Shown piece after piece: positions 3,836-42,500 of a DNA stretch of 64,000 nt (positions are counted from its first letter, which is position 1; each line of letters begins with the position of its first letter). The translations under genes were made by a program, and so were the position numbers. This stretch comes from Candidatus Synechococcus calcipolaris G9 (GTDB lineage: Bacteria; Cyanobacteriota; Cyanobacteriia; Thermosynechococcales; Thermosynechococcaceae), in assembly GCF_029582805.1 (NCBI RefSeq), contig NZ_JAKKUT010000005.1, positions 1-64,000 on the forward strand, given 5' to 3'. The notes under the pieces are model-generated. The model ran no database searches, had not been told where the DNA came from, and saw only the letters and a list, made by a program, of their open reading frames with translations.

Positions 3836-5563
3836 ATGATTGATCATGATGTTGTCATTGTTGGCGGTGGCTTGGCCGGATGTCGAGCCGCCCTAGAGAT
3901 TTGTCGGCTGGCCCCTGATCTGACCATTGCCCTCATTGCCAAGACCCACCCCATTCGCTCCCATTCCGTTGCTGCCCAAGGGGGAATTGCCGCTACCTTA
4001 AAAAATGTCGATGATCAAGATTCCTGGGAGAGTCACGCCTTTGATACGGTCAAGGGATCGGATTTTTTAGCGGATCAGGATGCCGTGGCCATTTTGACCC
4101 AAGAGGCCCCGGATGTGGTGATCGATCTGGAGCATTTGGGGGTTTTATTTTCCCGTTTAGAGGATGGTCGCATTGCCCAGCGGCCCTTTGGCGGCCATAG
4201 TCACAATCGCACCTGCTATGCGGCGGACAAAACGGGCCATGCCATTCTCCATGAGTTGTATTGCAATTTATTGAAGTATGGGGTGAATTTCTACGAGGAG
4301 TGGTATGTTCTCCGCCTCATCCTCGAAGATCAGCAGGCCAAGGGAGTGGTGCTGTACCACATTGAAACCGGGGAAATTGCCGTGATCCGGGCCCGGGCTG
4401 TCATGTTTGCCACCGGCGGGTATGGTCGGGTGTTTAATACCACCTCCAATGATTTTGCTTCAACCGGGGATGGTTTAGCGATGACCGCCTTGGCGGGCCT
4501 ACCCCTAGAAGATATGGAATTTGTCCAGTTTCACCCAACGGGACTGTATCCGGCCGGGGTCTTAATTTCCGAAGCGGTGCGGGGCGAAGGTGCCTACTTA
4601 GTCAATGCCGTCGGCAATCGCTTTATGGTCAACTATGCCCCCAGTCGGATGGAGCTTGCCCCTAGGGATATTGTGTCCCGGGCCATCACCACAGAAATTC
4701 GTCAGGGACGGGGGATTCACCTGGATGGCAGTGGCGGCGGCCCCTTTGTCCATTTAGACCTACGGCACATGGGTCGGGAAAAAATCATGAGTCGGGTTCC
4801 CTTTTGCTGGGAAGAAGCCCATCGCTTGGCCGGTGTAGATGCGGTGGTGGAACCCATTCCAGTGCGGCCCACCGGGCATTACTCCATGGGTGGGATTCCG
4901 GTGACCACATCGGGTCAGGTGCGATTGAACCAGGATCAGGTGGTGACGGGTTTTTTTGCAGCGGGTGAAACAGCCTGTGTGTCGGTGCATGGGGCAAACC
5001 GCCTAGGCAGCAATTCCCTGCTCGAATGTGTGGTCTATGGCCGCCGCACTGGTGCAGCGATCGCCCAGGATGTGCGTCAACGAAAATTTCCCCAGATTAA
5101 TTACAGTCGCTACGTTCAGGAAGCCCAGGAACAGATCCAGCAGCTTTTGGATCAACCGGGAACGCTGCGGATTGCCGAACTCCGTAATCAAGTACAAGAC
5201 TGTATGACCGATCACTGTGGCGTTTTTCGCACCGCAGAGCTATTGACCGAGGGGGTAAACCAGTTAGAGTCTCTACAACAACAGTATGGAAACATTCGCC
5301 TAGATGATCACAGCAAGGTCTGGAATAGTGAACTCATTGAAGCCCTAGAATTGCGGAGTCTGCTGGTGGTAGCAACGGTCATTCTCAGTAGTGCCCTGAA
5401 TCGCCAGGAAAGCCGGGGGGCCCACTACCGTGAAGATTATCCCCAACGGGACGATCAGCGATTCCTACAACACACCTTTGCCAGCTACTCGCCCACGGGG
5501 ATGGATATTCGCTATGTTCCGGTCACCATCAATCTTTTTGAACCGGAAGAGCGACGCTACTAG
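3836..5563 (+). CDS. sdhA: succinate dehydrogenase / fumarate reductase flavoprotein subunit
   Basis: This 575-residue protein is the FAD-containing catalytic subunit that oxidises succinate to fumarate and feeds electrons to the membrane quinone pool. It has the N-terminal dinucleotide fold [11 protein letters not shown] (6-16), the [10 protein letters not shown] segment whose His carries the covalent FAD in this family, HPTGLYPAG, and [11 protein letters not shown] in the substrate site. The C-terminal helical domain is complete, ending shortly after the REDYP.RDD signature. No iron-sulphur or membrane-anchor subunit lies next to it, which is common in cyanobacteria where the sdh genes are scattered. 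Confidence 0.93.
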
Positions 5564-5621
5564 TACGCTACTAGGGGGTTTGGTGCTACCTTAAAATTAC
5601 TTTATAGCTATGTTGCTTAGT

Positions 5622-5697
5622 TTAGGACGGGGTGCAGGGGTGGAACCCCTGACTGGGGGCGAGAGCCAACACACCCCCCTTATCCGAATTGTCCTAA
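5622..5697. repeat. 76-nt folded element bounded by TTAGGAC / GTCCTAA
   Basis: In the sdhA-DUF1350 gap, TTAGGAC (5622-5628) pairs perfectly with GTCCTAA (5691-5697). Inside are two further stems: CAGGGG (5635-5640) with CCCCTG (5646-5651), and GGGGG (5655-5659) with CCCCCC (5674-5679). The result is a cloverleaf-like fold. The outer arm has the same TTAGGAC/GTCCTAA sequence as the ends of the IS630 copy at 16.5-17.4 kb. It could be a miniature inverted-repeat element, a small structured RNA, or a terminator region; there is no U-tract. Confidence 0.45.
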
Positions 5698-5735
5698 GAA
5701 AATAGGAATCATTCTTTCACGATGGAGTAACCCCT

Positions 5736-6482
5736 TTGGACTGGCAAGAGGTGCGGGGAAACTGGCTACTCATTCCGCCGCGATCGCGGGGGATCATTCA
5801 TTTTTTGGGTGGAGCATTTTTAGCTGCCGCTCCCCAAGTGTCCTATCGTCGTCTTTTGGAATTTTTAGCCGAGCATCGCTATGCCATTGTCGCCACCCCC
5901 TTTGTCAATACCTTTGATCACCTGGCGATCGCCCGGGATGTGTTGACTAAGTTTGAGTATGGCCTCGACTGGCTAGAGCAACGTTCCCGCTGCCGGCCCG
6001 GCCTACCGATCTATGGACTTGGCCATAGTATGGGGTGCAAACTACAACTCTTGATTGGCAGCACCTATGAGGTGGAGCGGGCGGGTAATATTTTTCTAGC
6101 ATTTAATAATTATGCCGCCAACCAGTCCATTCCCTTTATGGAAAACGTGAATGTCTCCGGTATGGAGTTTATCCCCAGTCCCCGCGCCACGGAACGCCTC
6201 ATTGAACAGGCCTACCCCATTCGCCGCAACCTCCTGATTCGCTTCCAAAACGATGATATTGATCAAACCGGACGGCTCAGTCGAATTCTCAAGGAGCGGT
6301 TTGATCACATGGTGACCACCTTGCAGTTACCGGGCAATCACCTCACCCCCCTTGGACAAACCCTCAGTTGGCAACCGGGGGCAGAGTTTTCCCCCCTAGA
6401 TGCGGTGGGGCAATGGTTACGCCAGGGCCTATTTCCCGAATTAACCCAACTGGAACAGACCCTTATAAAGTGGTTGATTTGA
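5736..6482 (+). CDS. DUF1350 family protein, alpha/beta-hydrolase-like
   Basis: A 248-residue protein of the plant/cyanobacterial DUF1350 family. The sequence shows IIHFLGGAFLAAAPQ (an HFxGGAF oxyanion-like segment) near residues 20-35 and GLGHSMGCK (nucleophile-elbow-like, Ser in GHSMG) near 94-102, so an alpha/beta hydrolase fold is likely. The substrate is unknown. The start is TTG at 5736, preceded at 8-12 bases by GGAG; the upstream ATG at 5722 runs straight into a stop. Convergent with rsmA. Confidence 0.8.
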   Translation: MDWQEVRGNWLLIPPRSRGIIHFLGGAFLAAAPQVSYRRLLEFLAEHRYAIVATPFVNTFDHLAIARDVLTKFEYGLDWLEQRSRCRPGLPIYGLGHSMGCKLQLLIGSTYEVERAGNIFLAFNNYAANQSIPFMENVNVSGMEFIPSPRATERLIEQAYPIRRNLLIRFQNDDIDQTGRLSRILKERFDHMVTTLQLPGNHLTPLGQTLSWQPGAEFSPLDAVGQWLRQGLFPELTQLEQTLIKWLI

Positions 6483-6503
6483 TGTACTCATTCGAGGTAT
6501 TTC

Positions 6504-7301
6504 CTAGTTTGGCTCTAGGACATCACTCAGTTGAATCCATTGGTCTAAATTGAGATCTTCGCCCCGACATTTAATGGAAATCCCTAAGCTCTCTAGGCAA
6601 TGACGAACCAGATCGGGGTTTAGGATCGGTTTGAGGGCGGTTGCTAACATTTTGCGACGGGTGGAAAATCCCTGTTTAATGAGGTGATCTAACCAACGGG
6701 GATCTTTGACAGTGGGCAGGGTGGCATGGGGCCGCAGGCGAATCACCGCAGATGCCACCTTCGGCACGGGATGGAAGGCGGTGGCGGGTACGGGGCAAAT
6801 CAATTCACAGGTGGCTAAATATTGCACCCGCAGGGAAAGGGCACCAAAGGCGCGGCTGCTAGGTTGGGCGGTGAGGCGATCGGCTACTTCCCGCTGAACC
6901 AAGAGAATTAAACGTTCAAAGGGCGGACGGCGGGGGGCATCCATGGTACCCAGGAGCTTCATTAAAATCGGCCCGGTAATGTTGTAGGGAATATTTGCCA
7001 CCACCTTATCGGGACAACCCCGCGGCAGGGTGTCTAAATCTAGCTCTAAAATATCCCCTTGAATCAGGTGCAGGTTGGGTTGGGTTAGGGTTTTTGTCAA
7101 TGTGCCATAGGCACGAGGATCTAGCTCAACACTCACTACTTCCTGGGCTTGGGCTAAAAGAGGCTTGGTTAATACGCCAGTGCCGGGGCCAATTTCCAGA
7201 ATGCGATCGCCCCCGCTCAGGTCGGCTGCCCCTAGAATCTCTCCTAAGACCCTAGGACTTCTCAGCCAATGCTGGCCAAGCTGTTTACGGGGACGAATCA
7301 T
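6504..7301 (-). CDS. rsmA: 16S rRNA dimethyladenosine transferase RsmA (KsgA)
   Basis: RsmA dimethylates two adjacent adenines near the 3' end of 16S rRNA during small-subunit maturation. The 265-residue sequence starts RKQLGQHWL, followed by the SAM-binding ILEIGPGTGVLT (motif I), the acidic VELD, and the NIPYNI catalytic motif (N-x2-P-Y). C-terminal domain is complete. It lies 14 bases downstream of eno on the same strand, so the two are probably cotranscribed. Confidence 0.95.
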   Translation of the reverse strand: MIRPRKQLGQHWLRSPRVLGEILGAADLSGGDRILEIGPGTGVLTKPLLAQAQEVVSVELDPRAYGTLTKTLTQPNLHLIQGDILELDLDTLPRGCPDKVVANIPYNITGPILMKLLGTMDAPRRPPFERLILLVQREVADRLTAQPSSRAFGALSLRVQYLATCELICPVPATAFHPVPKVASAVIRLRPHATLPTVKDPRWLDHLIKQGFSTRRKMLATALKPILNPDLVRHCLESLGISIKCRGEDLNLDQWIQLSDVLEPN

Positions 7302-7315
7302 TTAGGACAGGTCAA

Positions 7316-8596
<1,281 letters not shown>

Positions 8597-8727
8597 TCAC
8601 GTTTCCTATCTATTCTCAAGATGCAGCCCAATTCTACTGTGATTCGGGAGCCAGCAATAGTAGTCTAGCCATCAGTGAACCCAGGTTTTAGGTTTACTTA
8701 ACCTTTGGGGAGTTTGAGGTGGTGGGT

Positions 8728-9042
8728 TTAATCTGGGGCCACCTCATGATGGCCGTGGCTGGGACAGGGGGGAGCCTTAATGGAGCGATCCAGCCAGCCC
8801 GTAGCCTGTTCTAACCGCAGCAGAGCTTCCTCCGGTTGATCCTTCAGAAGGTAAACTAGGGCGGCTGCCGTTTGTTCTAGGGCCCGGGCCCGCCGATTCC
8901 CCTTGAGACGGTGCCAATCCTGGGAATCAATGGTGAGGGCATTCATCAGGGCGATCGCCAGTTCTTCGGGAGTGGTGGATGATGAAGCAGGTAAGGATGA
9001 TGGAGTAGGTACTGAAATGGGTATAGAAGGGGGGACAGTCAT
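8728..9042 (-). CDS. small conserved cyanobacterial protein (DUF6439-like)
   Basis: A 104-residue protein. The first 25 residues are Pro/Ser/Thr-rich and low in complexity; the rest is a predicted helical domain with EELAIALMNALT, DWHRLKGNRRARALEQTAAALVYLL and PEEALLRLEQATGWLD. It looks like the small cyanobacterial family annotated as DUF6439; I am recalling this rather than testing it. Function unknown. It lies between eno and menB on the same strand. Confidence 0.65.
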   Translation of the reverse strand: MTVPPSIPISVPTPSSLPASSSTTPEELAIALMNALTIDSQDWHRLKGNRRARALEQTAAALVYLLKDQPEEALLRLEQATGWLDRSIKAPPCPSHGHHEVAPD

Positions 9043-9101
9043 AGGGGTACTCGTAAATACTCTCTTGCTGATACGCTGAATTTTTTGAACCCCTAAACGC
9101 C

Positions 9102-9938
9102 CTAGGGCAGCCAGGGAAATTGCTGAAAATTGGGGGGACGCTTTTCCAGAAAGGCCTGTTTGCCCTCGGCACTTTCCTGGGTTAAATAATAAAGGAGTGT
9201 GGCATTTCCTGCTAATTCTTGTAGCCCCGCTTGACCGTCGCAGTCCGCATTAAAGGCAGATTTCAGACAACGAATGGCTAAGGGACTTTTTTGGAGAATC
9301 TCTTCGGCCCAGCGCACCCCCTCCGCCTCTAGGTTTTCTACTGGGACAACACAATTTACTAATCCCATGGATAAGGCTTCATTGGCAGGATACTGGCGAC
9401 AGAGAAACCAAATTTCCCGCGCTTTTTTCTGCCCCACAATTCGAGCCAGGTAACTCGCCCCAAACCCACCATCAAAACTACCCACCTGGGGCCCCGTCTG
9501 GCCAAAGATGGCATTTTCGGCGGCAATGGTGAGATCACAGACTAGGTGCAATACATGGCCGCCACCAATGGCATAGCCCGCCACTAGGGCAATCACCACC
9601 TTGGGAATTGTGCGAATTAAACGTTGCAGGTCTAACACATTCAAACGGGGAACCCCGGCCCCATCCACATAGCCGCCGACCCCACGCACGGTCTGATCTC
9701 CGCCAGAGCAAAAGGCATACTTACCATCGGTGTGGGGGCCGGCCCCCGTGAATAGGATCACGCCAATTTTCGGATCATCCCGGGCATCCAAAAACGCCTG
9801 GCATAGTTCCATCACCGTTTCGGGACGAAAGGCATTCCGTTTATGGGGCCGATTAATGGTAATTTTGGCGATTCCCCCAGCCTTGTGATAAAGAATATCT
9901 TGATAATCCTGCTGGGGGTTCCAGACAATGGCGGTCAT
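9102..9938 (-). CDS. menB: 1,4-dihydroxy-2-naphthoyl-CoA synthase MenB
   Basis: MenB closes the naphthalenoid ring from o-succinylbenzoyl-CoA, a step of phylloquinone (vitamin K1) synthesis in cyanobacteria; phylloquinone is the A1 electron carrier in photosystem I. The 278-residue crotonase-fold protein shows the family pattern [32 protein letters not shown] (oxyanion hole), [10 protein letters not shown] and the C-terminal KRPPNF. The start codon overlaps the stop of the upstream lipoprotein gene by four bases (ATGA), so the two are in one transcript. Confidence 0.95.
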
Positions 9939-11521
9939 AGCCCCTCTCTCGTTGGTTCAGGAGATTCGGGTTCTGGCGTTGACCCAGGGATTTGCTCCGA
10001 CGAATTCTGACCCGATTGATTCTTAAAGTAACGACTGGGAATTCCTGTATTTAGAAGGGGCCCATCCGTCTCTGGTTCAGGAGTATGGGATGTCCCTGAC
10101 TCATCCGACTTGGGCGTTGCCTCAGACCCAAACGTTTTAGAACTAGAGGCTTTAGGCCCATGTGTTGATGTTCTCTCCATGCCTAGGGGCACTTCTGGGG
10201 ACTGATCCCCAGGCTTTAGAGCTTTGGGGGACGGCGTAGGTTTGGGAAAAGCCGTAATTTCAGGGGTTTGCTCAATCTCTACTGAGTCAGGGGGAGTAGG
10301 GGATCCGTCCTTCTGGAAAAAGCGTAAAAAATTCCGTCCTCTGGTGTTTTTTCCAGAAGATTCTGCCCCAGGTTTAAGGGGTGCAGGGGCGATCTCGGTT
10401 TCCATCGAAGGAATAGGAGGGGAAGATTCAGCCCCAAGAGCGCCATTTGTTTCTATGTCTTGTTCTACTTTTGGTTCTGCTAGCTTTGCTGGCGTTGGCT
10501 CTGTTGGGATGGGTGCAGGGGTTGGCTCGGCAGGAATTGCCGGTGCTTCTTTAACTGGAGGCAACTGGGCCGGAAAATTTCGACTTAAAAGACTCTGGAC
10601 ATTTTTTGCGGTTAACTCCCCTCGAAATAGCCGCGATCGGGTGTCATTTCCCTCTGGCTGATAATCTACGACCTGGGTCACCGTATTAAAGGCATTATCA
10701 ATGGGTCGGCCCTGGCCATCCAGAAGCTCTAGGCGTACCCAGTTGGTCCCTGGCTTCATGCCAGTTAAATAAATCGACTGCCAACGATCCAGGTTAAAGC
10801 TTTGACCATTGACCGTCACCCGAATCTGCCAGGCTCGATTACCCTCCATGGACTGGGGATCAATTATTGTCTGTAGGGGAGCATTGGTTAAATAAAAGTC
10901 TAAAAGTACCGACTCACTCCCATAGGCCCCCTGGGGTTGGTTATAGGTGATCAGGGGTAGGCTTGCTATCGGATTATTTTCATCGCTGGGCGTTAAAACA
11001 TTAAACGTCACCTGGTCGAAGGCTCCCGCATTCTTGAAGCTTTCATCCCAGGGATACAGAGCAAAGGCTCGCAGGGTATGGGTTCCAGGGGCTAGATGTT
11101 CAAAATGAATCGGCTCCCTTAGATCGTAAATGTCTTGGGAGGCTTGATTATCCAAAATTAAATGGAGGTGGGGCCCCAGCCCTGTTTTTTTATCCTGGAA
11201 AATCTCTAGGTTATCTACGGACAGTTCCACATCTAGGGCCGTTTCCCCTAGGGTTTGGTTGGGGCGAGGGCTAAGGATATTTACTTGGGGTTGGTAGCGA
11301 TCCAGCCAGGCCTTCAAGTCATCTAGGGCGATCGGAGGAGACACCTCTTGCAAATTTGCCCCTAAGGGCGTTGCCCTCTGGACACCCGTTAAATTATTAC
11401 CTGCGGGGCGATCGCTCCGGTCTTGTGACCCTTGACTGCTACAGGCAACTAATCCCCACAGCAAAATAATACCAAGAGCAAGGGATACAACTTTTTGAAA
11501 TAAACGATTCCAGATCTTCAT
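9935..11521 (-). CDS. Pro-rich lipoprotein of unknown function
   Basis: The likely start is the ATG at 11521 (six codons inside the longest frame), giving about 528 residues. The N-terminus is a lipoprotein signal: positive [10 protein letters not shown], a hydrophobic stretch and the lipobox LVAC. Residues ~70-300 are a beta-rich region with [25 protein letters not shown] and [18 protein letters not shown], resembling bacterial immunoglobulin-like or carbohydrate-binding folds. The C-terminal ~200 residues are low-complexity, rich in Pro, Glu, Ser and Thr. The protein probably sits on the periplasmic side of a membrane with a flexible tail. Its four-base overlap with menB suggests cotranscription rather than shared function. 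Confidence 0.75.
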
Positions 11522-32258: not shown

Positions 32259-34901
32259 CTAAATTTCTGAAGCATTTGTAACCACATCAAAATCAACATC
32301 TAATACATCAAAGTGCTGCTGACCACAATAAATCTTTGCGCCTTCACCGACTCGTAACTCTAACTGTTCTTTCGTGCCTTTTGTTTCTCGAATGAGGTAA
32401 AGTTTTTGTTCATCTTCAGAGACTTGTTTGACGATCGCCCAATCAGGGTTGTAAGTGCCAAGCGGAGTTTGGACTTTAAACCAGGGTGGAAGTTTGATAA
32501 ACAATTTAATGTCTTCTCGCCCATCTAAAATTTCAGCAAATTGCCGTTCTATATCAGATTGACACTCGATCGCGTCATAGATTGAGTGATTGACGGATAA
32601 CATATTGTCAATAAAGCCTGAAATTTCCTTGTCTTCAAACAGACGCATCTCATACTCTTCTCCGGCAATGCGTTCATACTTGATACCGTTGACCATTAAC
32701 TGCTGCATAGTAAAACGGATTGCACGGGTTGCGAGATCAAGAAATTGCTGGGGATTGATAAATATATCTGACAAGCGATCGGACTTTAGCAGAATGCTGG
32801 AAAGCGTTTCACGGGTTAACTCTGTTTCGCGTTGTAGATAGCTGATTAAATCAGGAATAGTAGAAATTGTAGATTCTGTTCTGCTACTGGTGACAGACAA
32901 AAGCTGTGAAGTAATTCCTGTTTTTTCGTAACCCAGTGCCACCTTTTCTAAACGGATCTGAGGAGCAGTAATGGCAGGCATTTGATTGATTTGTCTGGCT
33001 GCATCGCCAATCAATGTCTGAGTATCGTATTCCACAGAGTAACGGGTTTTATGCTTAATCCGTTCCCAAAGTTTTAGAAAATCAGTGTTTTCTCTCCATT
33101 TGGGAATGAGGTTAGCTGTTTGGCGATCGCGGTTGTTTTTAATCCGTCCTTCAAATTTCACACCACAATCTTCTTCAATTTCAGTTTGTAAGGCACGAGC
33201 GAAGTCAGCATAACTTTCATTGGCGATCACAGTTAAGCGATTAATGGTTGGGTCAAAGACACGGATTCCAGTTGTATCTACAGGTAAGCGTAATCCTCGA
33301 CCGATCGTTTGTCGCCGCTCAACTTTTGATTGCACTTCTCGCAGCATACAAATTTGAAAAACATTGGGATTATCCCAGCCTTCTCGTAATGCTGAATGGC
33401 TGAAGATAAAACGCAGTGGCTCTGTGGGCGACAATAGCCGCTCTTTATCTTTCATGATTAGCTCATAGGCTGTATCATCTGCCACAGTTGAACCACTGGT
33501 GTCTTTAGCGTTGCCCTGCCGATCTTCGGCAAAGTAACCATTGTGAATCTCTTCAACCGCAGGGAGAGCGAGATTTTGGTAGCGGGGGAGTTGAGAAAGT
33601 TCCTGGTAAATTTCAATAAACCACTGACGAAGTTTGCCATCCGTTGCCGCATAATTCGCAACCCGATCAATGAAAAACAGCGATAAGACTTTTAACGGAC
33701 GATCAGGAAGCTGCCGTTTAACTGCCAATTCTTTATCTAAATGTTCTTTGATAGTTTCTCTGATTTGAGCTTTCATCAAATCATCACCATAGTTGCCAAT
33801 GGTTTCCCCGATGTTTAGGCTAACCCCATTCGTGAAAGAGATATATCCAAAACCTGCATCAATGCAGTCAACAACATAACGCCTGTAAAGTTCTCGACCA
33901 CCGGATAACTCATAGAGGTCAACGCCATTTTTGCTAATGGATACAGTTTTACGAGTGGGAGAGTTTTGTTTTTGTATATCGATCGCGAGTTTCGCTGTAA
34001 TCTTCGTTTTGGTGGCTTTAATGGATTCTAAATAAACGTAGGGCTGGTTAAAACTATTTTCCTCAAGGGCAGAGGTAACGGTAATTTGTTTCACCAATTT
34101 CATATCATAGGCTTTTACTGGATCAAGTCTATAGAGTAAGTTATATAAGTTTTTGTGGGTTGCAGAATAACGTAATGTGCAGAGTGGGTTCAGGCTGGCG
34201 ATCGCTTCCTTCGCTTTGTCTGACTCCATGTTTTGCGGTTCATCCAAAATCACAATTGGATTTGTGGCTTGAATAAATTCAATGGGGCGATGTCCCGATA
34301 ATCCATCGAGTTCTTTATGGATGACGCTAATATCTTTTTTATTAAAGGCATCAATGTTAATCACAAGAATCTGCAATTGATTCGAGTTAGCAAATTGCCG
34401 CAAATTAGAGACTCGCTTAGAATTGTAAACCCAGTAATCAAATGGCTGATTTCCATAGAGGTTTTGAAAATGCTCTTTGGTAATCTCTAGGTTTTTCAGC
34501 ACCCCTTCCCGAATGGGCACACTGGGTACAACAATGATGAATTTAGTAAACCCATAACGGGCATTGAGTTCATGAATGGTTCGCAGGTAAACATAGGTTT
34601 TTCCTGTGCCTGTCTCCATTTCAATGGAGAAGTTCATCCCCTGTTGAAGCGGTATATCTACTCCGGGTTGTACAAGTGCAATCCCATGACGTTTTTGAAC
34701 AGTTTGAACATTTGCCAGAATTTCGCCTAGTGATAGCTCTAGTTGGTTGCCAAACCCCATCTCGGTCATTGCGCCACTAAAACCGATGCCTAAACTGGTT
34801 TCAAATTGTCCCCCTGCCAAGGGTTGACCGTCAAACACATCAACGACTGCGTTAACGGCATCCAGTTGATATTGTTGTTGGCTGTCGAATTGGATTTTCA
34901 T
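32259..34901 (-). CDS. type III restriction enzyme, Res subunit
   Basis: The 880-residue Res subunit provides ATP-dependent translocation and cleavage in a type III restriction-modification system. Helicase motifs are METGTGKTYVYLR (Walker A, TGTGKT at 97-102), ILDEPQNM (DEAD-box equivalent), RYSATH, FSHSALREGWDNPNVF and RRQTIGRGLRLP (motif VI). The C-terminal PD-(D/E)xK nuclease reads YNPDWAIV ... YLIRETKG. The start overlaps the stop of the HEPN gene by four bases, tying it into one operon with mod and the HEPN/MNT pair. HIP1 octamers at 33123 and 34198 suggest a cyanobacterial origin. Confidence 0.92.
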   Translation of the reverse strand: MKIQFDSQQQYQLDAVNAVVDVFDGQPLAGGQFETSLGIGFSGAMTEMGFGNQLELSLGEILANVQTVQKRHGIALVQPGVDIPLQQGMNFSIEMETGTGKTYVYLRTIHELNARYGFTKFIIVVPSVPIREGVLKNLEITKEHFQNLYGNQPFDYWVYNSKRVSNLRQFANSNQLQILVINIDAFNKKDISVIHKELDGLSGHRPIEFIQATNPIVILDEPQNMESDKAKEAIASLNPLCTLRYSATHKNLYNLLYRLDPVKAYDMKLVKQITVTSALEENSFNQPYVYLESIKATKTKITAKLAIDIQKQNSPTRKTVSISKNGVDLYELSGGRELYRRYVVDCIDAGFGYISFTNGVSLNIGETIGNYGDDLMKAQIRETIKEHLDKELAVKRQLPDRPLKVLSLFFIDRVANYAATDGKLRQWFIEIYQELSQLPRYQNLALPAVEEIHNGYFAEDRQGNAKDTSGSTVADDTAYELIMKDKERLLSPTEPLRFIFSHSALREGWDNPNVFQICMLREVQSKVERRQTIGRGLRLPVDTTGIRVFDPTINRLTVIANESYADFARALQTEIEEDCGVKFEGRIKNNRDRQTANLIPKWRENTDFLKLWERIKHKTRYSVEYDTQTLIGDAARQINQMPAITAPQIRLEKVALGYEKTGITSQLLSVTSSRTESTISTIPDLISYLQRETELTRETLSSILLKSDRLSDIFINPQQFLDLATRAIRFTMQQLMVNGIKYERIAGEEYEMRLFEDKEISGFIDNMLSVNHSIYDAIECQSDIERQFAEILDGREDIKLFIKLPPWFKVQTPLGTYNPDWAIVKQVSEDEQKLYLIRETKGTKEQLELRVGEGAKIYCGQQHFDVLDVDFDVVTNASEI

Positions 34902-35242
34902 GGTTCTTCAGTAGCAGTGATAGTTTCTAACACGGTAATCAATTCTGGTAGAGCAAGCTGAATCGTATCCCAAATAATCTCAATGTCTAGGTCATCATAT
35001 TCATGAATTAGACGGTTTCGCATTCCAATAACTTTAGACCAAGGAATAGTCGAAATTGAAGCTTGAGTTTCAGGAGAAATTCTTCGAGCAGCTTCTCCAA
35101 TGATTTCAAATTGACGAGTAACCGCAGCTTGACGCATTAAATCAAGTTCAAATGTTTCCCAGTCAACTCCAGCAACAAAGTCTTGAGCCAACTTTGCAGC
35201 ATTCAGCATATCTCTTAGATAATTTGGCTCACGCGGCAGCAT
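34898..35242 (-). CDS. hepT: HEPN-domain toxin of the HepT (DUF86) family
   Basis: HepT proteins are RNA-cleaving toxins restrained by their MNT nucleotidyltransferase partner, which AMPylates a Tyr in the active site. The ~114-residue protein has the HEPN signature R-x4-H-x-Y as RNRLIHEY, preceded by RQFEIIGEAARRIS. ATG 35242 (MLPREPNYLRD) is chosen because the longer frame reads through the end of mntA. It overlaps mntA by 14 bases and res by four, so translation of mod, mntA, hepT and res is closely linked. Confidence 0.88.
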   Translation of the reverse strand: MLPREPNYLRDMLNAAKLAQDFVAGVDWETFELDLMRQAAVTRQFEIIGEAARRISPETQASISTIPWSKVIGMRNRLIHEYDDLDIEIIWDTIQLALPELITVLETITATEEP

Positions 35243-35564
35243 AAATGACTTTGGCAGAGTTAAGAATGGCTTGACGGCGTAAATAGTTTTGACTGCGTTC
35301 AATTCCTCGACGGCTCACTAAATCAACCTTTCTTTGAAATATCTTTTGAATATCCTCTTCCATATCCACTAAATCAAACAGTGTCCAATGGGTATCATGG
35401 GCGAAGGAAACCAGCACATCAATATCACTGCTTTCTAGGCGAAAATCATCTCGCAGAATAGAACCAAATAAAGCAAACTCGGTAATTTTCCAATGCTGGC
35501 AGAACTCAGCAATTTTCTCGTAATCGATTGGAATTTGTGCTTTTACCGCTTGAATATTTTGCAT
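35229..35564 (-). CDS. mntA: MNT-domain nucleotidyltransferase antitoxin
   Basis: MntA-type minimal nucleotidyltransferases neutralise HepT by modifying it. The 111-residue sequence has EFALFGSILRDDF followed by ESSDIDVLVSF, the GS...DxD polymerase-beta signature (eleven residues between GS and DID), and a second acidic strand KVDLVS. It starts three bases after the mod stop and overlaps hepT. The pair is inserted between the two subunits of the restriction-modification system. Confidence 0.88.
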   Translation of the reverse strand: MQNIQAVKAQIPIDYEKIAEFCQHWKITEFALFGSILRDDFRLESSDIDVLVSFAHDTHWTLFDLVDMEEDIQKIFQRKVDLVSRRGIERSQNYLRRQAILNSAKVIYAAA

Positions 35565-35566
35565 AG

Positions 35567-37444
35567 CTACACCGTCCTGAACTTAATATCATGGTCACGC
35601 ATTTGCAACTGGGTGTTGGTTTTTAGCTGGTCATTACCTCGAAATGAAGAATCCAGGCTAATGAATTGCTTGGGCTTGGGCTGATAGGTGAGGATTTGCC
35701 GAACAGTCTCTTCTAAAATCTCGTATTCTAGGCAGATAAATAGCTCCTGGTCTTCAATGGCGTAAATTTCCTGTCCGGCAATCTCTAGCTTTTCAACCTT
35801 GGCCGTTAATGGGAATCCAGCTTTAAGCAAAATCTCATACAGCATTCCTAGTTTTGTCGTACCTGGACGAATGTTTTCTGCAAACTCTTGAAGCAATATG
35901 CTTAATTGCTCAACATTCTGCGGTGCAGTACCATCCCAAATTTTGAAATTGCTTTCAGTCAGTGTGAAAACTTTGAAACCGCGATCGTGTTGCCCTACAC
36001 CATTTAGATCTAGATCACCATTTCTTGTCTCATCAAGATTTGCGATCGCACTATGAATACGTGCCTTGCCAATATCTGCAATAGTTTTAAGCTTCGTTTC
36101 TGCTATTGGTAAATATTCAGGTAATTGAACACAGATAAATCGTCGGTTTCCACCATCTTCTTTGTTTTGTTTTAAGACAGCATGAGCGGTAGACGCACTC
36201 CCTGAAAAGAAATCTAGAACTAAATCATTCGCCAAGGGTGTTGTTGCTAACTGTAAAATTCGTTGAATTAAGCGCGTAGGCTTTACAGTATCCAAAACAT
36301 TATCAGTGTTTTCAAATTGAACGAACTCAACAAGCTCTTTCTTTGCCTCTTGAGTATGTCCAACATCACTATATTTCCAAAGCGTTTGAGGTACAATCCC
36401 TTGTTTAACCTCTGAGAGAAAGCGTTTAAGCCGAGGCATACTATCACCGTCTTCTCCCCACCAGATACGTTTATCCTGCTCGAGTTCAAGAAACTTTTCA
36501 TATCGAATTGCCCAATATCTCCCTCTCGGCGGCACAAAAGTTTTACCACTTGGGCTTCTTACTTCATACTGACCATCAGCGTAAAAATTTCTAGCTGTTA
36601 GATCACCCGAACTCCAAACGTCTCTTGGATCATTATCTGGGTTTGAGTATCGGGCGTTTGCTTCTTCAGTTCGAGCCAATAAATTAGGCAACCATACTTC
36701 TGAATTTCTGACATAAACGATAATGTAATCGTGATCCTCTGAAAAATGACGCGCAGAATTTTTAGGTGAAAATACTTTTTGCCAAATAACTGATGCTATG
36801 AAGTTTTCTTCCCCAAATATCTCGTTCATTAAGGCTCTTAAATTATGTACCTCATGATCGTCAATACTGACAAAAATCACTCCATCTTCCTTTAATAAGT
36901 TTCGAGCCAGAAACAGGCGAGGGTACATCATATTCAGCCACTTAGAATGAAACCGTCCATTGGTCTCCGTATTTGTGGTTAGCTTAATACCCTCACCATT
37001 TTTTTGTCCCGAATACCGCAGATAATCTTCTAACCCTTCCCGAAAATTATCAGGATAGATAAACTCCTTTCCGGTGTTGTAGGGCGGATCAATATAAATC
37101 ATCTTGATCTGGTTGTGGTAGCTCTTTTGCAGCAGCTTCAACACCTCCAGATTGTCACCCTCAATAAAGATATTTTCCGTCGTCTCAAAATTAACCGACT
37201 CCTCCGGTACAGGAGTCAGCGTTCCCACACTTTGCGCTTGCAGATTCCGAATTGCCTCACTCTTGCCCGCCCAAGACAACCCATACCGCTCACGTCCCTC
37301 CTCAATCGACTCCCCTAAGGCCTGCTTTAGCCGCTCAAAATCAACCTTGCCCTCAGCAAATACCTCCGGGAAGAGTTCTCGCAGGGCCGCGATCTTGTCG
37401 TCCAGCATATTTTGGGATGTCAACGGTAGTCTGTCTTCAGTCAT
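35567..37444 (-). CDS. type III DNA methyltransferase, Mod subunit
   Basis: Mod recognises the asymmetric target and methylates adenine, protecting host DNA and guiding Res. The 625-residue protein has motif IV YIDPPYNTGKEF (DPPY at 119-122), GVIFVSIDDHEVHNLRALMNEIFG and the SAM-binding motif I LVLDFFSGSASTAHAV near 395-410, i.e. the beta-class order of type III enzymes. The central ~200 residues are the presumed target-recognition region. It is the first gene of the mod-mntA-hepT-res operon. One HIP1 octamer at 36042 lies within it. Confidence 0.93.
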   Translation of the reverse strand: MTEDRLPLTSQNMLDDKIAALRELFPEVFAEGKVDFERLKQALGESIEEGRERYGLSWAGKSEAIRNLQAQSVGTLTPVPEESVNFETTENIFIEGDNLEVLKLLQKSYHNQIKMIYIDPPYNTGKEFIYPDNFREGLEDYLRYSGQKNGEGIKLTTNTETNGRFHSKWLNMMYPRLFLARNLLKEDGVIFVSIDDHEVHNLRALMNEIFGEENFIASVIWQKVFSPKNSARHFSEDHDYIIVYVRNSEVWLPNLLARTEEANARYSNPDNDPRDVWSSGDLTARNFYADGQYEVRSPSGKTFVPPRGRYWAIRYEKFLELEQDKRIWWGEDGDSMPRLKRFLSEVKQGIVPQTLWKYSDVGHTQEAKKELVEFVQFENTDNVLDTVKPTRLIQRILQLATTPLANDLVLDFFSGSASTAHAVLKQNKEDGGNRRFICVQLPEYLPIAETKLKTIADIGKARIHSAIANLDETRNGDLDLNGVGQHDRGFKVFTLTESNFKIWDGTAPQNVEQLSILLQEFAENIRPGTTKLGMLYEILLKAGFPLTAKVEKLEIAGQEIYAIEDQELFICLEYEILEETVRQILTYQPKPKQFISLDSSFRGNDQLKTNTQLQMRDHDIKFRTV

Positions 37445-41972: not shown

Positions 41973-42266
41973 ATGACAAAACAACAAATAGTAGAATTCC
42001 TCACCGAGCAGTTCACCGAAATCCGAGATTGCTTTGGTGTTCAACGGCTCGCCTTATTTGGCTCAACCGTCCGCGACGAAGCTCAACCCGGTAGCGACAT
42101 AGACATCTTAGTAGAATTTGAAGGTAAGGCCGACTCCAGCCGTTATTTTGGTCTACTCTTCTACTTAGAAGACAAACTAGGTTGCCCACTCGATCTAGTG
42201 ACCGACAAAGCTCTGCGCCCTGAACTTCGCCCCTTTATAGAAAAAGATGCTATCTATGTCCCGTGA
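41973..42266 (+). CDS. MNT-domain nucleotidyltransferase
   Basis: A 97-residue minimal nucleotidyltransferase with RLALFGSTVRDEAQPGSDIDILVEF (GS-x10-DxD) and CPLDLVTDKAL (third Asp). It looks intact and is the antitoxin partner type for HEPN proteins. The HEPN gene that follows is severely shortened, so this copy may now be an orphan. It differs substantially from the mntA at 35.2-35.6 kb. Confidence 0.85.
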   Translation: MTKQQIVEFLTEQFTEIRDCFGVQRLALFGSTVRDEAQPGSDIDILVEFEGKADSSRYFGLLFYLEDKLGCPLDLVTDKALRPELRPFIEKDAIYVP

Positions 42267-42408
42267 GTGGCGTTTTTACCTGAATGATATGATTGATTTT
42301 GCCCAACGGGTGCTGGAATACACAGACGGCTACACCCAAGCAGAATTCGAGCAAAATCGCCACACCTATATTCCACAGTTACTTGATGACCTGCGGCAGT
42401 TAAAATGA
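42256..42408 (+). pseudogene. HepT-family HEPN gene, internally deleted
   Basis: ATG 42256 overlaps the end of the MNT gene and opens MSREWRFYLNDMIDFAQRVLEY, a typical HepT N-terminus. After FEQNRHTY the sequence passes straight to IPQLLDDLRQLK and a stop at 42408, which resembles the HepT C-terminus. The middle, including the R-x4-H-x-Y active site, is missing. The product would be 50 residues and toxin-inactive. Confidence 0.75.
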
Positions 42409-42500
42409 CCTAATCCCAAAGTAATATCATCCTCCTCCAGACACCGACCCTAGCGGGTGCGATACTGTGCCTTTATACCTCATATCCATGATTCCCGCCC

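Follow-up and report, generated by a model that had tools for sequence, protein, structure and literature searches.

In the window, a 64,000-nucleotide stretch of Candidatus Synechococcus calcipolaris G9 (contig NZ_JAKKUT010000005.1), a HEPN/MNT toxin-antitoxin pair lies between the two subunit genes of a type III restriction-modification (R-M) operon, in the order mod-mntA-hepT-res. Judged by the sequences compared here, this nesting looks like a recurrent design rather than a one-off accident. We give an even chance to the reading that the pair in the mod/res junction is coupled to restriction, as an addiction lock and a second abortive line of defence.

Genes and junctions of the operon

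The four genes lie on the minus strand exactly where a first-pass annotation of the sequence had placed them, and all of them appear intact. The features are as follows.

35567..37444, minus strand: mod, type III DNA adenine methyltransferase, 625 aa (Pfam PF01555, N6_N4_Mtase, E 6e-38; PADLOC MTase_III, E 1e-202)
35229..35564, minus strand: mntA, minimal nucleotidyltransferase, predicted antitoxin, 111 aa (Pfam PF01909, NTP_transf_2, E 1e-15)
34898..35242, minus strand: hepT, predicted HEPN ribonuclease toxin, 114 aa, ATG at 35242 (Pfam PF01934, HepT-like, E 1e-25)
32259..34901, minus strand: res, type III restriction subunit with SF2 helicase and PD-ExK nuclease, 880 aa (Pfam ResIII and RE_endonuc; PADLOC REase_III, E 1e-292)
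34902..35566, minus strand: inserted segment with mntA-hepT, ~665 bp at the ATGA junction (DNA alignment against genomes G262 and G048)
34898..34901, minus strand: ATGA, hepT stop overlapping res start; the identical overlap joins mod and res in relatives free of the insert

The junctions were also as first described: a 2-base gap between mod and mntA, a 14-base overlap between mntA and hepT, and the 4-base ATGA overlap between hepT and res. Pfam and PADLOC matches and the motifs confirmed a genuine HEPN/MNT pair nested in a genuine type III operon, with junctions of the translation-coupling type. Pfam matches of all four products exceed the cut-off. A longer hepT ORF from TTG 35302 was set aside because the ATG start at 35242 aligns with relatives. 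Promoter and terminator scans gave matches at chance level only. The window holds many GCGATCGC copies, which would point to a cyanobacterium.

Mod carries DPPY119 and FSGS (DFFSGSAS at 411) and ends in ...FRTV, followed by a TAG stop. We considered the FRGND-containing end of Mod as a repeat insertion and ruled this out, since G262 and G048 have it too and it is therefore native. Res carries GTGKT98, DEPQ220 and PDW819...ETK. A gene for a DPPY-bearing N6/N4 methylase thus accompanies, on one strand, a res gene with helicase motifs and a PD-ExK nuclease. Type III systems such as EcoP15I likewise have mod followed by res, a beta-class methyltransferase, and an SF2 helicase with a PD-ExK nuclease. 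In contrast to them, the window has two additional genes between the subunits.

The two additional genes form a class I HEPN/MNT module (PF01934/PF01909): they are adjacent, MNT comes first, and both exceed the Pfam cut-offs. HepT has the Rx4HxY motif as RNRLIHEY (R75-x4-H80-x-Y82), which was found in 63 of 63 sequences scanned. MntA has G34-S35 and D47xD49, or GSX11DXD. This spacing is one residue longer than the published GSX10DXD, so the exact published motif is absent, but the catalytic G, S, D and D are kept. Among relatives GSX11DXD is the rarer form, present in 7 of the 71 sequences scanned (the query counted). MntA and HepT scored 34.9 and 44.3 bits against NCBIfam equivalog cut-offs of 60. 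By phmmer, HepT matches the HEPN toxin 7ae9. The AF2 model of HepT (pLDDT 92.7) had only HepT/HEPN toxins as top fold matches, and that of MntA (pLDDT 90.0) matched the solved MntA/MNT antitoxins 6m6u, 7bxo and 8xeo; the best structural matches of both models were solved HepT/MntA complexes.

In type VII HepT/MntA systems, MntA moves AMP onto a Tyr of HepT and thereby blocks its RNase, as demonstrated in Shewanella and an archaeon (PMC7641770). The window's pair is like these systems (Shewanella oneidensis SO_3166/SO_3165; Aphanizomenon HEPN/MNT) in its MNT-then-HEPN order, its Rx4HxY toxin, its G-S...DxD nucleotidyltransferase and its best fold matches. It differs in the GSX11DXD spacing, in NCBIfam scores below cut-off and in its nesting in an R-M operon, and it is known from sequence and models.

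Elsewhere in the window, at 41973-42409 on the plus strand, lies a second MNT gene (97 aa) with GSX10DXD. After it, an ATG at ~42256 opens an ORF of ~50 aa that resembles the first part of a HepT, giving a free-standing HEPN/MNT pair whose toxin is truncated.

Insertion into a mod-res junction

The nearest Res relatives in the phylum sample are those of G262 (87% identical) and G048 (88% over a fragment). In both genomes mod ends in ...ACAGTATGA, with a TGA stop that shares bases with the ATG of res; the remaining 5' part of res is deleted in G048. DNA alignment placed the ~665 bp with mntA-hepT precisely at this ATGA junction. Mod retains FRTV as its end, followed by TAG, and the ATGA overlap is now between hepT and res. 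On this alignment, the pair is an insert into a directly joined mod-res. The arrangement goes beyond chance, because the nearest relatives join mod and res directly and the insert falls at precisely this point.

G+C content is 40–42% across the whole R-M block, against 51% in its flanks, and the block was therefore probably acquired by transfer. A DNA tree of the mod/res pieces common to the window, G262, G048 and G594 gave no firm branching, and its outgroup matches were partly spurious; a single early insertion with clean losses later may thus describe the lineage of the window and G594.

Recurrence of nested pairs and use of the junction as a cargo slot

The first-pass annotation had named confinement to one strain as grounds for rejecting its idea. 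This is contradicted by the survey, in which the order recurs both in the same genome and in several others. A RE_endonuc search of the window genome gave only two loci, both ordered mod-mntA-hepT-res. The second operon (L133; G000 C1, ~309.7–315.5 kb) is very distant from that of the window (Res E 2e-5; MntA 31% and HepT 36% identical), and its pair occupies the point where the relatives G353 and G209 have mod abutting res. G583 has a third, intact nested case (L301: mod 5202-7052, MNT 7001-7402, HEP 7392-7730, res 7661-10699, all from stop to stop). The res nearest to that of the second system (77%) is in L206 (G121:C1:1972000-1984000), where the mod-res insert is oppositely oriented and includes an AAA ATPase-like gene.

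G594 (L297) has a relic homologous to the window's operon. Its mntA-hepT pair is open, is 72% and 78% identical to the window's and has the identical TAG and ATGA junctions; fragments of mod lie on one side of it and the start of res on the other. Both mod and res are broken, and the toxin Arg of Rx4H is changed to Gln. With restriction and toxin both disabled, this single decayed locus fits a pair that is not discardable until the toxin is disarmed; it is weak evidence, and the decay could be plain pseudogenisation.

Related pairs were found at similar positions. Between mod2 and res2, G513 has a pair of another kind, in which MNT is combined with a PF05168 HEPN. G427 and G484 have an MNT/PF05168 HEPN pair directly upstream of res2, with mod beyond the region covered or off the contig. 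G390 and G544 carry a pair of the HepT type directly upstream of mod. A type I operon in G066 has hsdS and hsdR separated by a relative of the window's pair, again with ATGA overlaps. In Ornatilinea apprima (L076:11781-12429), a HEPN/MNT pair lies ~1 kb downstream of res, outside the mod-res slot. Upstream of a large type III-like res, the loci L312 and L310 have a tandem series of several partial mod copies, all with one N-terminal segment in common.

In a tree of 66 pairs, well-supported branches require the nested HepT-type cases to have arisen separately three or more times; with the PF05168 type counted, the sequences point to at least four separate insertions. In this tree the window's pair clusters with the relic of G594 and a free pair of G033, near which we looked for R-M remnants and found none. 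Most close relatives of the window's pair are free-standing, in unrelated neighbourhoods. Plasmid searches with joined mntA-hepT-res queries gave no record spanning both the pair and res, and one viral contig carries the pair, free-standing only. The synteny proposed earlier therefore stands as a recurring order. It is not supported as a single conserved system, as the pair is missing from the closest mod-res relatives, free pairs occur elsewhere, and the separate insertions went into a slot open to many other modules. Neither half depends on the other, since the nearest mod-res relatives do without the pair and most of its close relatives stand alone.

We surveyed this slot (loci L010-L088 and L123-L316) in two sets: 67 loci with both mod and res, taken from the top 80 Res matches in GTDB genomes, and 53 sampled loci of the same phylum, counting that of the window. 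More than 150 bp between mod and res was counted as cargo, and anything less as a direct junction. Cargo was present in 38 of the 67 bacterial loci, the other 29 being direct, and in 36 of the 53 same-phylum loci. Cargo ORFs of at least 90 aa were codirectional with the operon in 134 of 147 cases (binomial p ~1e-26). The Pfam tally gave SLFN_AlbA_2, YhcG/DUF1016, AAA_21, DUF4276, GmrSD, Fic and RhuM in the 67-locus set, and XisI, XisH, Uma2, Bro-N/RhuM, HEPN/MNT, Phd with PIN, HicBA and Abi_C in the 53-locus set. The type III mod-res junction is a general docking slot with codirectional cargo rich in toxin and defence genes. HEPN/MNT occupied the slot in 0 of the 67 best-matching GTDB loci. 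At 6 HepT-like genes per 3200 genes, 0.14 placements would be expected by chance in 53 slots, which is a rough guide. The probability of the three separate cases besides the window's is 4e-4, again only a guide, as loci were sampled by Res similarity and one genome supplied the background.

These data bear on two rival explanations. The main rival, possible if somewhat doubtful to us, is that a self-sufficient toxin-antitoxin module merely lodged in a well-expressed mobile operon. Insertion at the ATGA junction would harm neither gene, and the pair would gain expression and transfer and would stabilise the island, but would have no functional contact with restriction. The free-standing relatives speak for this, as do the free pairs that the window genome also has and the many unrelated modules that the slot accepts, Phd-PIN, HicBA, XisHI and Uma2 among them. 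However, placement at one junction is independent, recurrent and overwhelmingly codirectional, the pair is present in both type III operons of the window genome, and the cargo lists, read from mod-res slots alone, are skewed to toxin and defence genes.

We consider it improbable that the two coupled cistrons serve mainly to delay and lower Res relative to Mod, making establishment in a new host safer and the toxin secondary. Such tuning would agree with the retained coupling overlaps and with the many kinds of cargo that separate mod and res. However, 29 of 67 loci manage without a spacer, and the catalytic residues of HEPN/MNT, which a mere spacer would not need, are conserved.

Possible coupling of the toxin to restriction

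The reading in which toxin and restriction are coupled begins with the uptake of a type VII-like HEPN/MNT cassette by a type III R-M operon at its mod/res junction. One transcript would give all four proteins by coupled translation, and MntA would adenylylate Tyr82 of HepT and keep the toxin silent. If the operon is lost, or if a phage disables its expression or the R-M complex, the activity of the antitoxin would drop before that of the toxin, and the freed HepT would cleave host RNA. The pair would then be an addiction lock on the R-M operon and an abortive second line behind restriction, as PrrC backs EcoprrI.

Several observations favour this coupling. The coupling junctions were retained without a seam at the insertion, and the pair recurs in the distant second operon, in G583 and in the G594 relic, with at least three origins in the tree. 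PF05168-type pairs stand at res2 in G513, G427 and G484, and G066 has its pair between hsdS and hsdR. The cargo is codirectional and rich in toxin or defence genes, the catalytic residues are intact, and in G594 R-M decay accompanies loss of the toxin Arg. Finally, MntA adenylylation of the HepT Tyr is known in relatives, and PrrC is a precedent. Against it stand the lack of the pair in the nearest mod-res relatives, the free-standing position of most of its own close relatives, the absence of HEPN/MNT from the 67 GTDB slots and of plasmid records joining the pair to res, the MntA spacing of 11 rather than 10, and the missed NCBIfam equivalog cut-offs.

PrrC, an embedded HEPN nuclease, is released on phage inhibition of the type I R-M system that hosts it (PMC12707154). 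As in the type Ic EcoprrI operon, the gene for an RNA-cutting HEPN toxin, a candidate second line, lies within an R-M operon in the window (PMC12707154; accessible text of PMC3710099). PrrC differs in being an ABC-ATPase-HEPN fusion restrained by the type I complex, whereas the window has a separate MNT antitoxin and a type III host. By analogy with PrrC, coupling of toxin and restriction is plausible.

A third explanation, in which MntA modifies Mod or Res and not HepT alone and thereby gates restriction, seems to us very improbable. MntA is a predicted adenylyltransferase made beside both proteins, and the MNT antitoxins of G390 and G544 have an N-terminal segment homologous to that of Mod. 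However, we know of no such activity, the window's MntA lacks this segment, and a toxin partner with an acceptor Tyr is present. In those two genomes (L309:2163-3289 and L313:6701-7243), the segment of ~45 aa has 72–80% DNA identity to the N-terminal end of the adjacent Mod, as though the antitoxin had received a copy of this part of mod.

The nested order had been put forward as undescribed, and our literature search, with most subscription papers outside its reach, gave no account of it in a type III operon. The idea is not new in kind. The accessible text of a 2013 census of HEPN proteins links HEPN toxins, including MNT-associated families, to R-M operons with which their genes cluster, reads this as multi-pronged defence and proposes a PrrC-like second line; the mod-mntA-hepT-res order, the seamless insertion at the junction and the mod-res cargo slot are not described in that text (PMC3710099). 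The members and the concept are thus known. For HEPN/MNT pairs seamlessly and repeatedly nested at the mod-res junction, and for this junction as a general cargo slot, the literature searched gave no description.

A broader proposal, which we think unlikely, is that the mod-res junction is a dedicated plug-in site. Its cargo, including HEPN/MNT pairs gained on at least four occasions, would be under selection for sensing when the R-M system fails or is lost. The site would then be the type III equivalent of PrrC guarding, with toxins that can be interchanged. Even without coupling of toxin and restriction, type III junctions are a recurrent codirectional slot and a place to seek new defence and toxin modules. 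Natural pairs of operons with and without the insert, such as those of the window and G262, make the coupling directly testable.
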